Shown: positions 4,875 through 9,957 of the stretch, one piece after another
Layout of the letters: each line of letters starts with the position of its first letter
Numbering within the stretch: the stretch's first letter is position 1
NCBI GenBank assembly: GCA_020439605.1
Contig: JAGQSI010000035.1
Coordinates: forward strand, 1-11,309
Origin: Acidimicrobiales bacterium
Lineage (GTDB): Bacteria; Actinomycetota; Acidimicrobiia; Acidimicrobiales; Iamiaceae
Length of the DNA stretch: 11,309 nt
Direction of reading: 5' to 3'
Translations under genes and position numbers: made by a program
The notes under the pieces: generated by a model
What the model saw: the letters and a program-made list of their open reading frames with translations, nothing else
What the model was told of the DNA's origin: nothing
Database searches by the model: none

Positions 4875-6803
4875 CTAGGCGGTCACTATCGGGAACCAGA
4901 TATCAAACGTGTCGAGGTGGGCAAACAGTTCCGCCAAGGTATCGCTTCTACCGTCCATCTCTACCTCGCCGAGACGCTCGAGTTCGCTCAACTCCTTCTG
5001 GCCAAAAACCAGCGAGGCCAGCGTCGCGTGGTTGCACCTCAGCGTGAGCTCAGGGTGTGCAATTCCATCTGGTTGTTGTTTGCGGGTTGCTGCAAGCGTG
5101 CCTCGTTGAATCCCGATGGTCCAGCTCTCCGAGCGGTCACCAACTTCGAGCCTCAGAGACCACGCTTTGGAGCCCGAGACATGATTTCTGAGGCGAATCG
5201 CTAGATAGTCGATCAGCATTTCCACGCTCATGGCCCCAACCAGATCACTTGATGGACCAGACCCACCGCCACTGCCTACAGGGTGGCCATGGCGAAGTTC
5301 TTGAGCCCCGCTCAGATAGAAGGTGCGCCATGGACCTGACTCCGCCTGATAGCCGAGTTGTTCGAGCGCGTCGGCCTGCAACAGCTTGGCTTCGAGGTTT
5401 TCAGGATCCGCGAACACAACGTGGTTCACCACCTCAACCACCCAGCGGTAGTCACCTTGTTCGAAGCTCTTGCGCGCCTTGGCCAAAACCGATTCAGCGC
5501 CGCCCATGAACTCCACATAGCGCTTGGCCGCAGCAACCGGAGGATGGTTGTGGAGATGGGCCGGGTTGGCGTCGAACCACCCCAGGTAACGCTGATAGAT
5601 CGCCTTGACGTTGTGACTGATGGTGCCGTAGTACCCGCGAGCGGTTGGTTCCTCAGCGAGTTCATCGGGAAACTCCAACTTCTCGGCGATCTCTGAAGCA
5701 ACCAGTCCGTGATTGGCCATTCTCAAGGTTTGATCGTGAAGGTACCGGTACATGTCGCGATGAATGGATATCTGCTCGACGATCTCGTCGTGACCCCAAC
5801 GTGGCCAGTGATGGCTCGCGAAACACACATCGCTCCGATCCCCGAACAGGTCCAGAGCCTCCTGCAGGTACTTACTCCATGACAAAGCGTCACGCACCTG
5901 TGCCCCTCTCGGGGTGTAGAGGTTGTGCATCGTGCATGTGCAGTTTTCGGCCATGCACAAGATCCGATGGTCCGGGAAGTGGAAGTTCATTTCCGCTGGG
6001 GCCTCGGTGTCGGGGGTGACCTGGAAACAGATCCTCACACCGTCCACAACCATTTCGGTACCTGTCTCAATGATCTCAACGGTTGGAGCGATCAGCCCCT
6101 GACTCGCCAGCAGCGGAACTCCCTTGCCGAGACCGCAATCAACATGTCCACGAGGGCCCTTGGGTAACAACGCTCCATACATGTAGGTAGCTCGGCGAGT
6201 CATCACGTTGCCGGCCAGGATGTTTTCGCTCACTGCCGCTTCAAGGAAGCCTGCCGGGGCAATGATCTGGACCCTGCCGGCAGTCACATCATCTTCATCA
6301 ACCACTCCCCTGACCCCACCAAAATGATCGATATGGCTATGGGTGTAGATCACGGCGACCACCTCACGGGCGCCTAGATGCTCGTTGACAAGATTCAACG
6401 CAGCACGCGCTGTTTCCTCGGAGGTGAGCGGGTCGATCACGATCCAACCGGTCTCGGCTTCGATCACGGTCATGTTGGCTAGGTCGAGTCCCCGGACCTG
6501 ATAGAACCCCGGCGCCATCTCGAACAGTCCAGCAATCGAATTGCGTTGAGCCTGGGCCCACAATCCCGGATGCACCTCAGCCGGGGCCTTCTGGGCCAAG
6601 AACTCGAAGGCTTCGAGGTCCCATACCGGCCATCCGCCAGCATGGAGAATCTGAGGTGATGACGCCTCCGCGATCAGGCCTCTTTCGGCCAAGTGCCGCT
6701 CATTGTCATCACCGTGCAGGTAGTGCAGATGTCGAGCAGCGTGATTCAGCTCCTCGGTCAGCTTGGATGCCGGCTTCGGATTCAAGTCCCCTAGTTGGCC
6801 CAT
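4875..6803 (-). CDS. Class III alkyl sulfatase (metallo-beta-lactamase fold, SdsA1/BDS1 type)
   Basis: The 642-residue protein is a zinc-dependent alkyl sulfatase that hydrolyses primary or secondary alkyl sulfates (SDS-like surfactants) to alcohol and sulfate, releasing carbon or sulfur for growth. The metal site shows THSHIDHFGG (154-163; His155, His157, Asp159, His160), PGTEAPAEM-like PDTEAPAEM (264-272, Glu271), MAENCTCTMHNLYTPRGA (284-301, Glu286) and SHHWPRWG (330-337, His331). After the hydrolase domain comes the helical dimerisation domain (about 345-500, with NHGLVASEIAEKL and YYGTISHNVKAIYQRYLGW) and a C-terminal SCP2-like lipid-binding domain (about 525-640). Length and domain order are normal for the family. 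No signal peptide is seen, so a cytoplasmic enzyme is likely, unlike secreted SdsA1. ATG 6803 lacks a ribosome site. It is divergent from the PF10118 gene and convergent with the membrane protein (34 bp gap, no clear terminator). Confidence 0.94.
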   Translation of the reverse strand: MGQLGDLNPKPASKLTEELNHAARHLHYLHGDDNERHLAERGLIAEASSPQILHAGGWPVWDLEAFEFLAQKAPAEVHPGLWAQAQRNSIAGLFEMAPGFYQVRGLDLANMTVIEAETGWIVIDPLTSEETARAALNLVNEHLGAREVVAVIYTHSHIDHFGGVRGVVDEDDVTAGRVQIIAPAGFLEAAVSENILAGNVMTRRATYMYGALLPKGPRGHVDCGLGKGVPLLASQGLIAPTVEIIETGTEMVVDGVRICFQVTPDTEAPAEMNFHFPDHRILCMAENCTCTMHNLYTPRGAQVRDALSWSKYLQEALDLFGDRSDVCFASHHWPRWGHDEIVEQISIHRDMYRYLHDQTLRMANHGLVASEIAEKLEFPDELAEEPTARGYYGTISHNVKAIYQRYLGWFDANPAHLHNHPPVAAAKRYVEFMGGAESVLAKARKSFEQGDYRWVVEVVNHVVFADPENLEAKLLQADALEQLGYQAESGPWRTFYLSGAQELRHGHPVGSGGGSGPSSDLVGAMSVEMLIDYLAIRLRNHVSGSKAWSLRLEVGDRSESWTIGIQRGTLAATRKQQPDGIAHPELTLRCNHATLASLVFGQKELSELERLGEVEMDGRSDTLAELFAHLDTFDIWFPIVTA

Positions 6804-6861
6804 TGGGTCAGTCTTGTCGAGTTCTATTGATGGCGCTTCTCAAGCCGATCTAGATAGCGAT

Positions 6862-7698
6862 ATGACCGAAGCCTCACCTGTACCTGTCCGCCACGTGAGG
6901 TTCTCCTGGCCCGATGACCTAGAGGTGGTCTGGATTCCAGATGAGCCCGAGTTTGCCATCGCAGCTAACGCGGTCTCGTTACTCATGCCTCACGCCGAAC
7001 CATATGTGGTGTGGTCGACCCGCCAATCTCTGAGCGAGTCATTGATCAGTCCGCAGGATCCGATCTCTATTGAGGCAAGGGCCTATGTTGCCCAAGAGGC
7101 CCAACATCACGCGCAACACCGGCGCTTCAATGATCTTCTCACCCTTCAGGTTCCCGCTATCTCACGCCTAGATCGGCACTTCGGGAGAATCTTTTCGTGG
7201 CTCAAACGTCGAGGCTGTCGTTTTGGTCTGGCTTTTGCCGCTGCATTCGAAACTATTGCCTTTGTTGCAGCTCGGTGGGTCGACCGAAACCAACGACATC
7301 TTCGTGGTGCAGATCCCAGTGCTGCGACGATGTTCTTGTGGCATTTGGCTGAGGAGGTCGAACACAAATCGGTCGCGTTCAACACCTACATGGCCACTGG
7401 AGGAGGACGGCTCCGCTACGGATGCGCCGTGGTGGTAGCTGCACTGGTCCTCGCGTGGGGCGCCCTACTTGGCTCACTCACGATGATGCGCAGCACCGGG
7501 AGACTATGGAAACCAATGAGTCACCTGAAACTGGCCAGATGGTCCCTGTCGTTCGTGTTCGCTGCAATGCCGACCATGGTGGTTTCCGCTTTGCCGGGCC
7601 ATCACCCAGATCAACTCGCCAACCCGGCCGGCCTTGACAACTGGCTATCCAACTTCGACGAGAACACATCGAGCGTTCCACCTTGGGCACTTCCTTGA
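6862..7698 (+). CDS. PF10118-type predicted metal-dependent hydrolase (ferritin-like di-iron membrane protein)
   Basis: From ATG 6862 the protein has 278 residues and matches the "predicted metal-dependent hydrolase" family PF10118, whose members have ferritin-like helices with carboxylate/His metal ligands; the biochemical reaction is not established for the family. Candidate ligands are Glu46 (PHAEPYVV), Glu79 with His82 (AQEAQHHAQH, 77-86), Glu130 (AAFETIAF) and Glu165 with His168 (LWHLAEEVEHKSVAF, 159-173). Two hydrophobic segments (about 187-207 and 228-244) suggest membrane association of the C-terminal part. The open frame extends upstream to 6763, but that would overlap the divergent alkyl sulfatase. 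MTEASPVPVRHVRFSWP fits the family N-terminus, so 6862 is preferred, without a ribosome site. A weak TTGATG-N18-TAGATA (6827-6856) just upstream would give a leaderless mRNA. The stop is 42 bp before the anti-sigma gene. Confidence 0.85.
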   Translation: MTEASPVPVRHVRFSWPDDLEVVWIPDEPEFAIAANAVSLLMPHAEPYVVWSTRQSLSESLISPQDPISIEARAYVAQEAQHHAQHRRFNDLLTLQVPAISRLDRHFGRIFSWLKRRGCRFGLAFAAAFETIAFVAARWVDRNQRHLRGADPSAATMFLWHLAEEVEHKSVAFNTYMATGGGRLRYGCAVVVAALVLAWGALLGSLTMMRSTGRLWKPMSHLKLARWSLSFVFAAMPTMVVSALPGHHPDQLANPAGLDNWLSNFDENTSSVPPWALP

Positions 7699-7728
7699 AC
7701 AGCTAGGTGCAGAACTAGCCTTGAGGTG

Positions 7729-7755
7729 GGAACCCAACGAATGATTTGGGCGACC
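7729..7755 (+). promoter_or_regulatory. Possible ECF-type promoter GGAACC-N16-CGACC before the anti-sigma gene
   Basis: GGAACC (7729-7734) is a classic -35 element for ECF sigma factors, and CGACC (7751-7755) stands 16 nt downstream where a CGTC-like -10 element is expected. A transcript from it would begin near 7762, almost at ATG 7765, giving a leaderless message starting MACSEWFEM. This would be autoregulation by the sigma factor encoded two genes on. It is a match to a short consensus only. Confidence 0.35.
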
Positions 7756-8370
7756 AATAGACAAATGGCATGTTCCGAATGGTTTGAGATGGTGTCGGCC
7801 GGAGCCGACGACCAGTTGAGCGAAGAGGAAAGCTCACGCCTCCACGACCATTTGGCTACGTGCCAGCAGTGCACAGAGCTGTTCGAGACTTTCGCAATTG
7901 AACATCGACGGCTGAGGTTTCGAGCACCAGCAGATCACGATCCACTCGTAACCAACCTCCTCCAAGAACGCCAGACAGATCGCAGCGCCAGCCTGCTCGG
8001 CTTCAAGGCCAGAACGCTTGTGGGTGCCGTTGGCGTAATTGCCGCGGTTGGAGCCTTGGTCTCAGCAATCCACTTTGCGCAACAAAGCACCCCAGCGAGC
8101 TCCCCCAAACTTGATGCGGCGGTGCGTATCGATGCACGCAAGCACACTTTCGACAACTCTGAAGTCACGGTAACCACCGGCCAAAGCGTTGAGTGGCGCA
8201 ACTCAGGCGAGTTGACCCATCACATCGTGCGGACAGGCGAAGACGGGGCTAGCGACACGGTGTTGGCCCCGGGTCACAGTTACCATGCGACCTTTACACA
8301 GCCAGGCGTATACAGATTTTGGTGCATGATCCACGAGGGCATGCAGGGCACAGTGACGGTGGACCTGTGA
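7741..8370 (+). CDS. Zinc-finger anti-sigma factor fused to a periplasmic cupredoxin (blue-copper) domain
   Basis: From ATG 7741 the protein has 209 residues in three parts. Residues 9-50 are a zf-HC2/ZAS anti-sigma domain with Cys11 and the motif HLATCQQC (His37-x3-Cys41-x2-Cys44), which holds an ECF sigma factor inactive in the cytoplasm. Residues 92-112 form one membrane helix. Residues 128-209 are a plastocyanin/amicyanin-like domain outside the membrane: WRNSGELTHHIV gives the first Cu ligand (His160, possibly 161) and WCMIHEGMQGTVTV gives Cys195-x2-His198-x2-Met201, the ligand spacing of amicyanin. The type-1 copper site is thus complete. The gene overlaps the ECF sigma gene by GTGA. 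The start is uncertain: GTG 7726 or ATG 7765 are possible, and 7765 fits the domain boundary best. Copper or redox sensing is inferred from the architecture. Confidence 0.88.
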   Translation: MIWATNRQMACSEWFEMVSAGADDQLSEEESSRLHDHLATCQQCTELFETFAIEHRRLRFRAPADHDPLVTNLLQERQTDRSASLLGFKARTLVGAVGVIAAVGALVSAIHFAQQSTPASSPKLDAAVRIDARKHTFDNSEVTVTTGQSVEWRNSGELTHHIVRTGEDGASDTVLAPGHSYHATFTQPGVYRFWCMIHEGMQGTVTVDL

Positions 8371-8987
8371 GCGCCGTTGGCCGCCGTCGCGGTTCGGGCC
8401 TTCCACCTATACGTGGAGACGAAGAACTTTCCGTGCTAGCTCGCAGAGCAGCCGATGGCGATGCACAAGCGGAAGCCGCCTTCGTGGCGCGCACAATCGA
8501 CGATGTCTGGCGTTTCTGCGCCCACCAACTCGGCCCGAATCAAGCTGACGACGCTGTACAGGCCACCTACATCCGAGCACTGCGATCGCTGAAGAACTTC
8601 AGAGGAGATTCCTCGCCGAAGACCTGGCTACTTGGGGTGGCAAGAAATACCTGCCTCGATGAACGCAGGGCATTGGCAAGACGGATCCGGGTTCTCGAAC
8701 GCGTCGCACAGCAGGAGTCTTCTCCAGCGGCCGCATCGCTCGACACGGATCTATCCCCTGAGTCCGAAGATCTACTCAACCGTTTGGAAACCGACAGACG
8801 AGAAGCCTTCGTGCTCACCCAGATTCTCGGGCTTCCGTACGAAGAAGCAGCACTGGCCGTTGGTTGCCCGGTCGGCACAATTCGCTCTCGGGTAGCACGC
8901 GCCAGAGCAGACCTGCTCGAGCTCTCAGCGAGCGACGACGCCGACGCCGACAGACCAATGAACGGCCCGATGTCTGCTTCGAGCTAA
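8367..8987 (+). CDS. ECF (extracytoplasmic function) RNA polymerase sigma factor
   Basis: The 206-residue protein has sigma-70 region 2 at about 37-102, with DDAVQATYIRALRSLKNF and TWLLGVARNTCLDERR, and region 4 at about 133-184, with the helix-turn-helix LPYEEAALAVGCPVGTIRSRVARARADL. There is no extra C-terminal domain beyond a short Asp/Ser-rich tail, so it is a minimal ECF sigma factor that should direct RNA polymerase to a small regulon. GTG 8367 is chosen because it overlaps the anti-sigma stop as GTGA, with GGTGG a few bases upstream; the frame stays open to 8319, but that would place over 50 bp inside the cupredoxin. Its activity should be blocked by the adjacent anti-sigma/cupredoxin. 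The order anti-sigma then sigma is the reverse of most ECF loci. The LLM oxidoreductase 22 bp downstream is a candidate operon and regulon member. Confidence 0.92.
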   Translation: MSAVGRRRGSGLPPIRGDEELSVLARRAADGDAQAEAAFVARTIDDVWRFCAHQLGPNQADDAVQATYIRALRSLKNFRGDSSPKTWLLGVARNTCLDERRALARRIRVLERVAQQESSPAAASLDTDLSPESEDLLNRLETDRREAFVLTQILGLPYEEAALAVGCPVGTIRSRVARARADLLELSASDDADADRPMNGPMSASS

Positions 8988-9009: not shown

Positions 9010-9957
9010 ATGCCATCTCAAGACCTGCCTCCATTTCGCTTTGGCGTTCAGTGCTCCTCGCCCCCAGATGTCACTGCCGCTCACTGGCGGGACCTGGCAC
9101 TCAAGGTTGAAGATCTCGGCTACTACCGCCTGACCGTCTCGGATCACCTCGATGATCAGCTAGCACCGATTGCGGCCCTGATGTGCGCAGCAGACGCCAC
9201 ATCGACGCTGAGGGTTGGTGCGCTCGTGTTCTGCAATGACTACCGACACCCAGCCCTGCTGGCAAAAGAAGCAGCAACTCTGGACATCTTGTCGGAGGGC
9301 AGATTCGAACTCGGTATGGGCGCAGGTTGGATGACCAGTGACTACCGGGCCGCTGGAATCGAGATGGAGAGGGCCGGGATTCGTATCGCTCGCCTTGAAG
9401 AAGCCGTCCAGGTTGTTCGAGGACTGTTCTCCGACGGCCCGTGTGACTTCGATGGTGACCACTACCAGATTCGCGGATTGTCCGGTTCTCCCAAACCGGT
9501 TCAGTCCCCCCTACCGATACTCATTGGCGGTGGAGGCAAGAAGGTGCTTCAGCTCGCAGGCAGATACGGCGACATTGTTGGGCTCAACCCTGCGCTTCCC
9601 AACGGTGTGATCGATGCCTCAGCGGGCCCCGATGCCACAGAAGCCGCCACAGACCGTAAGATCGGTTGGATACGTGAGGCTGCCGGTGCTCGGTTTGGCC
9701 AGATCGAGCTTCACACCCGCATCCATCTAGCGATCGTCACCGATGATCGCCAAGGAACAGCCGAAGCACTAGCGCCAGCGTTGGGACTCACTGCGCATGA
9801 GGCGCTCGCATCACCTCATGCGCTGTGTGGCACGGTCGAGGAAATGGTCGACGATCTTCTATACCGGCGGGAGCGATTCGGCATCGCCTCAATCGGCATA
9901 AGCCTTGACTCACTCGATGCAATGGCACCTGTGGTGGCTGCTCTGGCCGGAAGCTGA
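9010..9957 (+). CDS. LLM-class F420-dependent oxidoreductase (MSMEG_2516-like)
   Basis: The 315-residue protein is a luciferase-like TIM-barrel oxidoreductase of the type that binds coenzyme F420 or FMN. The N-terminal block FRFGVQCSS (9-17), LGYYRLTVSDHLDDQLAP (36-53), LRVGALVFCNDYRHPALLAKEAATLD (67-92) and LSEGRFELGMGAGW (94-107) follows the pattern of the MSMEG_2516 subfamily of probable F420-dependent enzymes. LPILIGGGGKKVLQLAGRYGDIVGL (168-192) is the usual cofactor phosphate region. Length is normal. The substrate is unknown. ATG 9010 has no ribosome site; GGG just upstream is too close. It follows the ECF sigma gene by 22 bp on the same strand, so co-transcription is likely, and it is convergent with the S4 gene across 6 bp. 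Confidence 0.9.
   Translation: MPSQDLPPFRFGVQCSSPPDVTAAHWRDLALKVEDLGYYRLTVSDHLDDQLAPIAALMCAADATSTLRVGALVFCNDYRHPALLAKEAATLDILSEGRFELGMGAGWMTSDYRAAGIEMERAGIRIARLEEAVQVVRGLFSDGPCDFDGDHYQIRGLSGSPKPVQSPLPILIGGGGKKVLQLAGRYGDIVGLNPALPNGVIDASAGPDATEAATDRKIGWIREAAGARFGQIELHTRIHLAIVTDDRQGTAEALAPALGLTAHEALASPHALCGTVEEMVDDLLYRRERFGIASIGISLDSLDAMAPVVAALAGS

Follow-up and report, generated by a model that had tools for sequence, protein, structure and literature searches.

The 11,309-nucleotide stretch of an Acidimicrobiales genome analysed here (the window; contig JAGQSI010000035.1 of GenBank assembly GCA_020439605.1, with the genome referred to below as G000) encodes an anti-sigma factor joined to an extracytoplasmic cupredoxin and, overlapping it, a SigC-like extracytoplasmic function (ECF) sigma factor. 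From sequence comparison we suggest, with a probability of about 0.6, that this pair may be a transmembrane copper-occupancy switch which releases the sigma factor when copper is scarce. Copper occupancy appears to be the best candidate signal because two unrelated copper-binding folds, cupredoxin and PCuAC, are found on anti-sigma factors of one sigma clade whose predicted promoters precede genes for copper delivery and for a copper-free oxidase. The pairing of the two proteins and the regulon predicted in relatives appear well supported; what we infer is copper binding, sigma binding, which way the signal runs and how the anti-sigma factor lets go of its partner. A one-protein transmembrane sensor of copper or redox state had already been proposed in the first-pass annotation of the window, and the comparison with relatives lends support to its copper link; the kinship with SigC, the promoter with its regulon and the likely direction (scarcity, not excess) go beyond it.

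In the proposed mechanism, the anti-sigma (ZAS) domain would keep the sigma factor bound on the cytoplasmic side of the membrane for as long as copper fills the outer cupredoxin. Under copper scarcity this cupredoxin would be empty and the anti-sigma factor would free its partner, most simply through lost stability and regulated proteolysis and otherwise through a conformational change. The freed sigma factor would then transcribe the operon that encodes it, together with further genes in relatives: those for collecting copper and delivering it to cytochrome c oxidase (YcnI, PCuAC, SCO1, thiol/disulfide proteins and cytochrome c) as well as those for the copper-free cytochrome bd oxidase.

The anti-sigma factor and its sigma partner

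We number the residues of the window anti-sigma factor from ATG 7741, the start used in the first-pass annotation (open reading frame 7741–8370), in which it had been described as a 209-aa protein with a zinc-finger anti-sigma domain, one membrane helix and a complete, amicyanin-like blue-copper domain. All three parts were recovered in our analysis (Table 1). The N-terminal domain scores 30.8 bits against zf-HC2 (PF13490; Pfam cut-off 22.2 bits), includes the H-x3-C-x2-C motif, and has predicted local distance difference test (pLDDT) values of 95–98 in the predicted structure; ZAS is the class name for zf-HC2 transmembrane anti-sigma factors. The membrane segment is preceded by three Lys or Arg residues and followed by none in its flanks, and pLDDT is low across it. 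Beyond the membrane, Pfam, sequence and fold matches agree on a cupredoxin, with amicyanin as the closest fold, and the type-1 (blue) copper ligand set His...Cys-x2-His-x2-Met is complete (H160, C195, H198 and M201). The GTGA overlap with the ECF sigma gene was also seen as described, at 8367. What needs revision is the start codon: the true start is probably ATG 7765, which is preferred over ATG 7741 because the latter lies between the -35 and -10 hexamers of the predicted operon promoter, while ATG 7765 sits 8 nt past the -10 hexamer, as in relatives.

The best NCBIfam models for the window sigma factor are PRK12535 (149.6 bits) and SigC (126.9 bits), both under their own cut-offs, and it therefore falls outside the SigC equivalog (NF007231; curated cut-off 219 bits), as do nine relatives scoring 120.7–161.6 bits. 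The same two models are the top two for all ten of these sigma factors, which we refer to as SigC-like. A 16-row tree, used only for the two groupings given here, separates 13 SigC-like sigma factors from three other ECF factors (support 96/97; long branches were flagged) and places the six that are paired with fusions together (83/96). The sigma factor of the nearest relative, G007, is 66% identical to that of the window.

Fusion loci and a second copper module

The full-length fusion was found in 6/12 genomes of the genus and 0/12 other genomes of the family (E 1e-25), with one further example (G269) in another family, where it is the sole fusion among the 61 genomes around it; the distribution within the lineage is patchy. 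There was no other full-length match among the matches listed for the 397 order and 396 phylum genomes sampled, in which eight candidates were scored per genome, so that not being listed is no proof of absence. A protein search of 5.8 billion sequences (7994 candidates scored) gave at least eight fusion clusters at E 1e-10, a lower bound because none could be equated with the fusions of G003, G005, G007 or G269. The single-protein search for close relatives returned one cluster only, 97% identical; a contig search with a five-row alignment of closer relatives returned two loci, that of G004 and one of Paenibacillus in which only the cupredoxin part matches; and no relative was among 13 pattern matches in viral contigs. 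Two further candidates from the order, whose matches cover most of the query, were rejected as fusions: G196, which is without the ZAS part, and G301, where genes for an ECF-like sigma factor, a membrane protein that overlaps it and a secreted cupredoxin of its own follow one another (L062:3741–5414), possibly the same principle split over two proteins and with another type of ECF factor.

The survey for fusions beside ECF genes, which the first-pass annotation had recommended, found an adjoining sigma gene at 6/7 genomic loci, window included, and in each of these six the anti-sigma gene comes first and the sigma gene overlaps it, as had been noted for the window. At the remaining locus, in G005 (L022 9166–9780), the fusion is followed instead by cydA (Pfam), cydB (by eye) and a cydDC-like ABC gene. 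We found no description of an anti-sigma–cupredoxin fusion beside an ECF sigma factor, nor of a PCuAC–anti-sigma fusion, in the open-licence literature, and the earlier view of this architecture as little described holds to that extent.

Among the aligned fusions, which share 26–41% identity with the window protein, H37, C41, C44, H160, C195, H198 and M201 are invariant (12/12; P0003, a 97% copy, was left out). It is conceivable that the cupredoxin fold senses a ligand, a partner protein or envelope stress, as SigC-clade anti-sigma factors without copper domains do exist, but the invariance of the four copper ligands at this level of divergence and the copper genes behind the same promoter argue against a signal other than copper, and we give this very little credence.

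Further loci of the same clade, in G147, G153 and G227, were found via similarity of the anti-sigma N terminus, and all sit among copper genes. G147, an Acidimicrobiales genome in which one protein is the same as in Rhabdothermincola salaria, has the gene order SCO1–PCuAC–small protein–sigma–anti-sigma, and here the anti-sigma factor (L063:4913–5707), beside a SigC-like sigma factor, consists of zf-HC2 and PCuAC (PCuAC E 5.7e-25). A protein search with it gave 13 matches, seven of which have both domains, and in these seven aligned PCuAC fusions H177, M188, H210 and M212 (H-x10-M-x21-H-x-M) are invariant (P0015 and five others, each without one of the two domains, were left out). The order in G153 is sigma–SCO1–cupredoxin-like–PCuAC and that in G227 is sigma–cytochrome c–SCO1–cupredoxin-like (the first two named by eye).

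We also note that G153 has two copies of the same 29-nt promoter-like stretch 95 nt apart (L060:5844–5967), one where the sigma gene ends and one ahead of SCO1. Small cupredoxin-like proteins are encoded beside SCO1 or PCuAC at L060:6625–7074 and L061:3411–3794, both with a Pfam match, and at L063:3946–4332, which has none; by eye, all three keep a Cys and a His and lack the Met ligand.

Promoter motif and predicted regulon

A motif, GGGAAC-N17-CGAC (TGGAAC in G005), was read from the anti-sigma upstream regions and stands before 6/7 fusion anti-sigma genes and two other anti-sigma genes, in G153 and G227. The shorter pattern GGAAC-N17-CGAC has 19 copies across the seven fusion loci, compared with 0–9 for the other spacers from 12 to 24 (8 and 9 for spacers of 14 and 22), and the window holds one exact copy against 0.12 expected, with at least one in 21 of 200 shuffles. 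All eight anti-sigma genes carrying the motif have an in-frame start codon 7–9 nt past the -10 hexamer, which suggests leaderless transcripts. The motif matches the published sigma-C consensus of Corynebacterium glutamicum, GGGAACT / CGACTA (from the available part of PMC5483222, the introduction of which gives GGAAAC and CGACT instead), a match that was found only after the motif had been read. Promoters of this type are predicted for the window operon itself and for respiration and copper genes, the copper genes in relatives only.

In genomes with the fusion, the exact motif is present upstream of ycnI at 7/8 loci and of PCuAC at 5/10, compared with 1/5 and 1/7 in genomes without it. The lone ycnI among the latter is from G008, which has an adjoining SigC-like sigma factor, and the PCuAC is from G010 (L138 and L128; 96% complete), in which ycnI has a one-mismatch copy and neither fusion nor sigma factor was found at the thresholds used. 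Of the loci independent of motif discovery, 10/16 carry the motif against 0.054 expected from order-1 random sequences, for which the P of ~3e-22 is overstated as related loci were treated as independent (in addition, row L148 begins inside the gene, and for L117, a row without the fusion, the upstream sequence is limited to 153 nt). According to the available text of PMC8424229, YcnI binds Cu(II) and members of its family are often neighbours of copper genes.

A genome-wide search of G003, G005 and G007 gave 36 matches versus 17 in the reversed control, and 11 of the 30 examined were in promoter position (18 of the other 19 are inside likely open reading frames). The 11 precede genes for YcnI (3, one recognised only from the separate ycnI survey), PCuAC (2), cytochrome c (2), DsbB (2), an anti-sigma factor (1) and a His-rich protein (1). 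Across the relatives the motif stands before SCO1 (G269, G147 and G153), cydAB (G003, two sites), DsbB (G003, Pfam-tested, and G005, named by eye) and cytochrome c (G003, Pfam-tested, and G007 and G227, named by eye); it precedes SCO1–PCuAC in G269, divergent from the anti-sigma gene, and ycnI as well as each of two PCuAC genes in G007. In one island of G003 (L023) it is found before cydAB, a ycnI–SCO1 pair, a DsbA–VKOR fusion and a P-type ATPase. This predicted target set resembles a response to copper starvation, and the comparison with relatives suggests that the protein reports copper too scarce for the usual oxygen-using respiration.

The G003 island also holds a second P-type ATPase and a DUF305-like protein (by eye). 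A second SigC-like sigma gene of G003 (L165) lies elsewhere, with the motif ~75 nt from the matched start and pointing away.

These targets bear on two other readings. In one, copper loading of the cupredoxin would release the sigma factor for detoxification; in its favour, P-type ATPases lie in the G003 island, one of them behind TGGAAC-N17-CGAC, and Myxococcus CorE is activated by Cu2+. That ATPase shows an SPC motif (by eye), copper delivery and the copper-free oxidase account for most of the predicted targets, and sigma-C systems elsewhere act in copper lack, all of which makes sensing of copper excess highly improbable. In the other, the domain might trade electrons with cytochrome c or bc1 of the respiratory chain and report a stalled aa3 oxidase via its Cu(I)/Cu(II) state and not its occupancy. 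Cupredoxins are electron carriers, the fold here is nearest to amicyanin, and cytochrome c and cydAB are among the predicted targets. For C. glutamicum sigma-C the speculated stimulus is a defect in the electron transfer of aa3 oxidase, with disturbance of heme a insertion as a further trigger of its regulon (PMC7337898, from the part available). A sigma factor of the same clade, however, has an anti-sigma factor with PCuAC, a copper chaperone and not an electron carrier, leaving copper as the shared denominator. We regard redox sensing as a serious alternative, weakened by the PCuAC version and unlikely on balance.

Several observations weigh against copper occupancy as the signal for a SigC-type regulon. 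Five PCuAC loci of fusion genomes are without the motif, G010 has it before PCuAC in a genome with neither fusion nor detected sigma factor, and the anti-sigma gene of G269 itself lacks it. G005 has the anti-sigma factor yet no sigma factor of this type at E 1e-30. The clade can do without a copper domain, because several of its anti-sigma factors have only a multi-span membrane part, a series of hydrophobic stretches to which no soluble copper-binding domain is attached (G014 and G017, by eye; G153 and G227, in which Pfam finds zf-HC2 only). In the published part of the Mycobacterium tuberculosis account available to us, cydABCD is higher, not lower, in a sigC mutant (PMC7924339). Finally, G000 (2.33 Mb, 70% complete) has no enrichment of the motif (21 matches versus 35 in the reversed control), only the window operon carries a convincing site, its ycnI is without the motif and a PCuAC gene was not found in this 70% complete genome; we infer the regulon from relatives because the genome itself shows no motif-bearing copper gene.

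One other site in G000 (L075, C222), a GGAAC-N17-CGAC 81 nt before a CcmF-like open reading frame (by eye), was judged too weak and may be due to chance. In the window, the F420-dependent LLM oxidoreductase gene 22 nt past the sigma gene is possibly co-transcribed with it, and a similar gene, named by eye, also follows the pair in G007 (L021:15475–16419). We saw no copper link for the two hydrolases encoded upstream.

Table 1. Predicted features in and around the anti-sigma–sigma operon of the window.
Feature	Position	Strand	Remarks
Alkyl-sulfatase-like metallo-hydrolase	4875–6803		Just upstream of operon
PF10118 predicted metal-dependent hydrolase	6763–7698		Just upstream of operon
Predicted sigma-C-type promoter of operon	7728–7756	+	-35 GGGAAC 7728–7733, 17-nt spacer, -10 CGACCA 7751–7756
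Transmembrane anti-sigma factor with cupredoxin domain	7765–8370	+	Likely leaderless start ATG 7765
zf-HC2 / ZAS anti-sigma domain	7771–7872	+	Residues 11–44 (C11, H37, C41, C44); Pfam PF13490 E 3e-7
Single transmembrane segment	8014–8070	+	Residues 92–110; Kyte-Doolittle 2.31
Extracytoplasmic cupredoxin	8110–8364	+	Residues 124–208; Pfam; amicyanin match by sequence and fold
Predicted copper-ligand codons	8218, 8323, 8332, 8341	+	H160, C195, H198, M201, respectively
SigC-like ECF sigma factor	8367–8987	+	Overlaps anti-sigma gene by GTGA; Pfam Sigma70_r2 and r4_2
F420-dependent LLM oxidoreductase	9010–9957	+	TIGR03621; 22 nt past sigma gene

Comparison with known systems

The window anti-sigma factor shares the N-terminal zf-HC2 domain, the one membrane span and the overlapping ECF gene with ZAS transmembrane anti-sigma factors, and differs in its cupredoxin outer domain and in having its gene placed first. 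With CorE of Myxococcus xanthus the pair would have in common a copper-responsive ECF system, a response which is predicted in our case; CorE senses copper by a C-terminal extension of the sigma factor itself, without an anti-sigma factor (PMC8999054 and PMC10141476, in the parts available).

The closest parallels are with sigma-C systems. In C. glutamicum (the work of Toyoda and Inui 2016, taken as cited in the available parts of PMC5483222 and PMC7337898), sigma-C activates cydABCD, and its regulon is turned on when copper is lacking or heme a insertion is disturbed (PMC7337898). The promoter consensus and, as predicted from relatives, a cyd target and a link to copper deprivation are common to both; in contrast, these parts name no anti-sigma factor and describe no copper-binding one, the stimulus speculated upon being the electron transfer defect mentioned above. 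M. tuberculosis SigC (ECF36) is a copper-acquisition sigma factor that acts in copper shortage, and how the deficiency is sensed is stated as an open question (PMC7924339, available part). The SigC model ranks among the top two for the window sigma factor, although this scores under the SigC cut-off and the cyd response runs in the opposite direction in M. tuberculosis.

It is this question of how copper deficiency reaches SigC that the window protein addresses, as the candidate copper sensor is a covalent part of the anti-sigma factor. The case suggests that two unrelated copper folds have been exchanged around one regulon, and we think the balance tips slightly towards a wider proposal in which the SigC-type sigma factors of Acidimicrobiales are under the control of anti-sigma factors whose extracytoplasmic copper modules (cupredoxin or PCuAC) are interchangeable and would pass outside copper occupancy directly to the sigma factor, and so represent the missing sensor of copper-deprivation sigma-C systems. 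The question is directly testable because the candidate sensor is part of the anti-sigma factor and R. salaria, a named species, carries a version from the same clade; if the proposal is true, a blue-copper domain would serve as a signal receiver. While the pairing of a zf-HC2 anti-sigma factor with an ECF sigma factor is itself known, what appears to be new here is the fusion of a cupredoxin to the anti-sigma factor and the proposed link between sensor and regulon.
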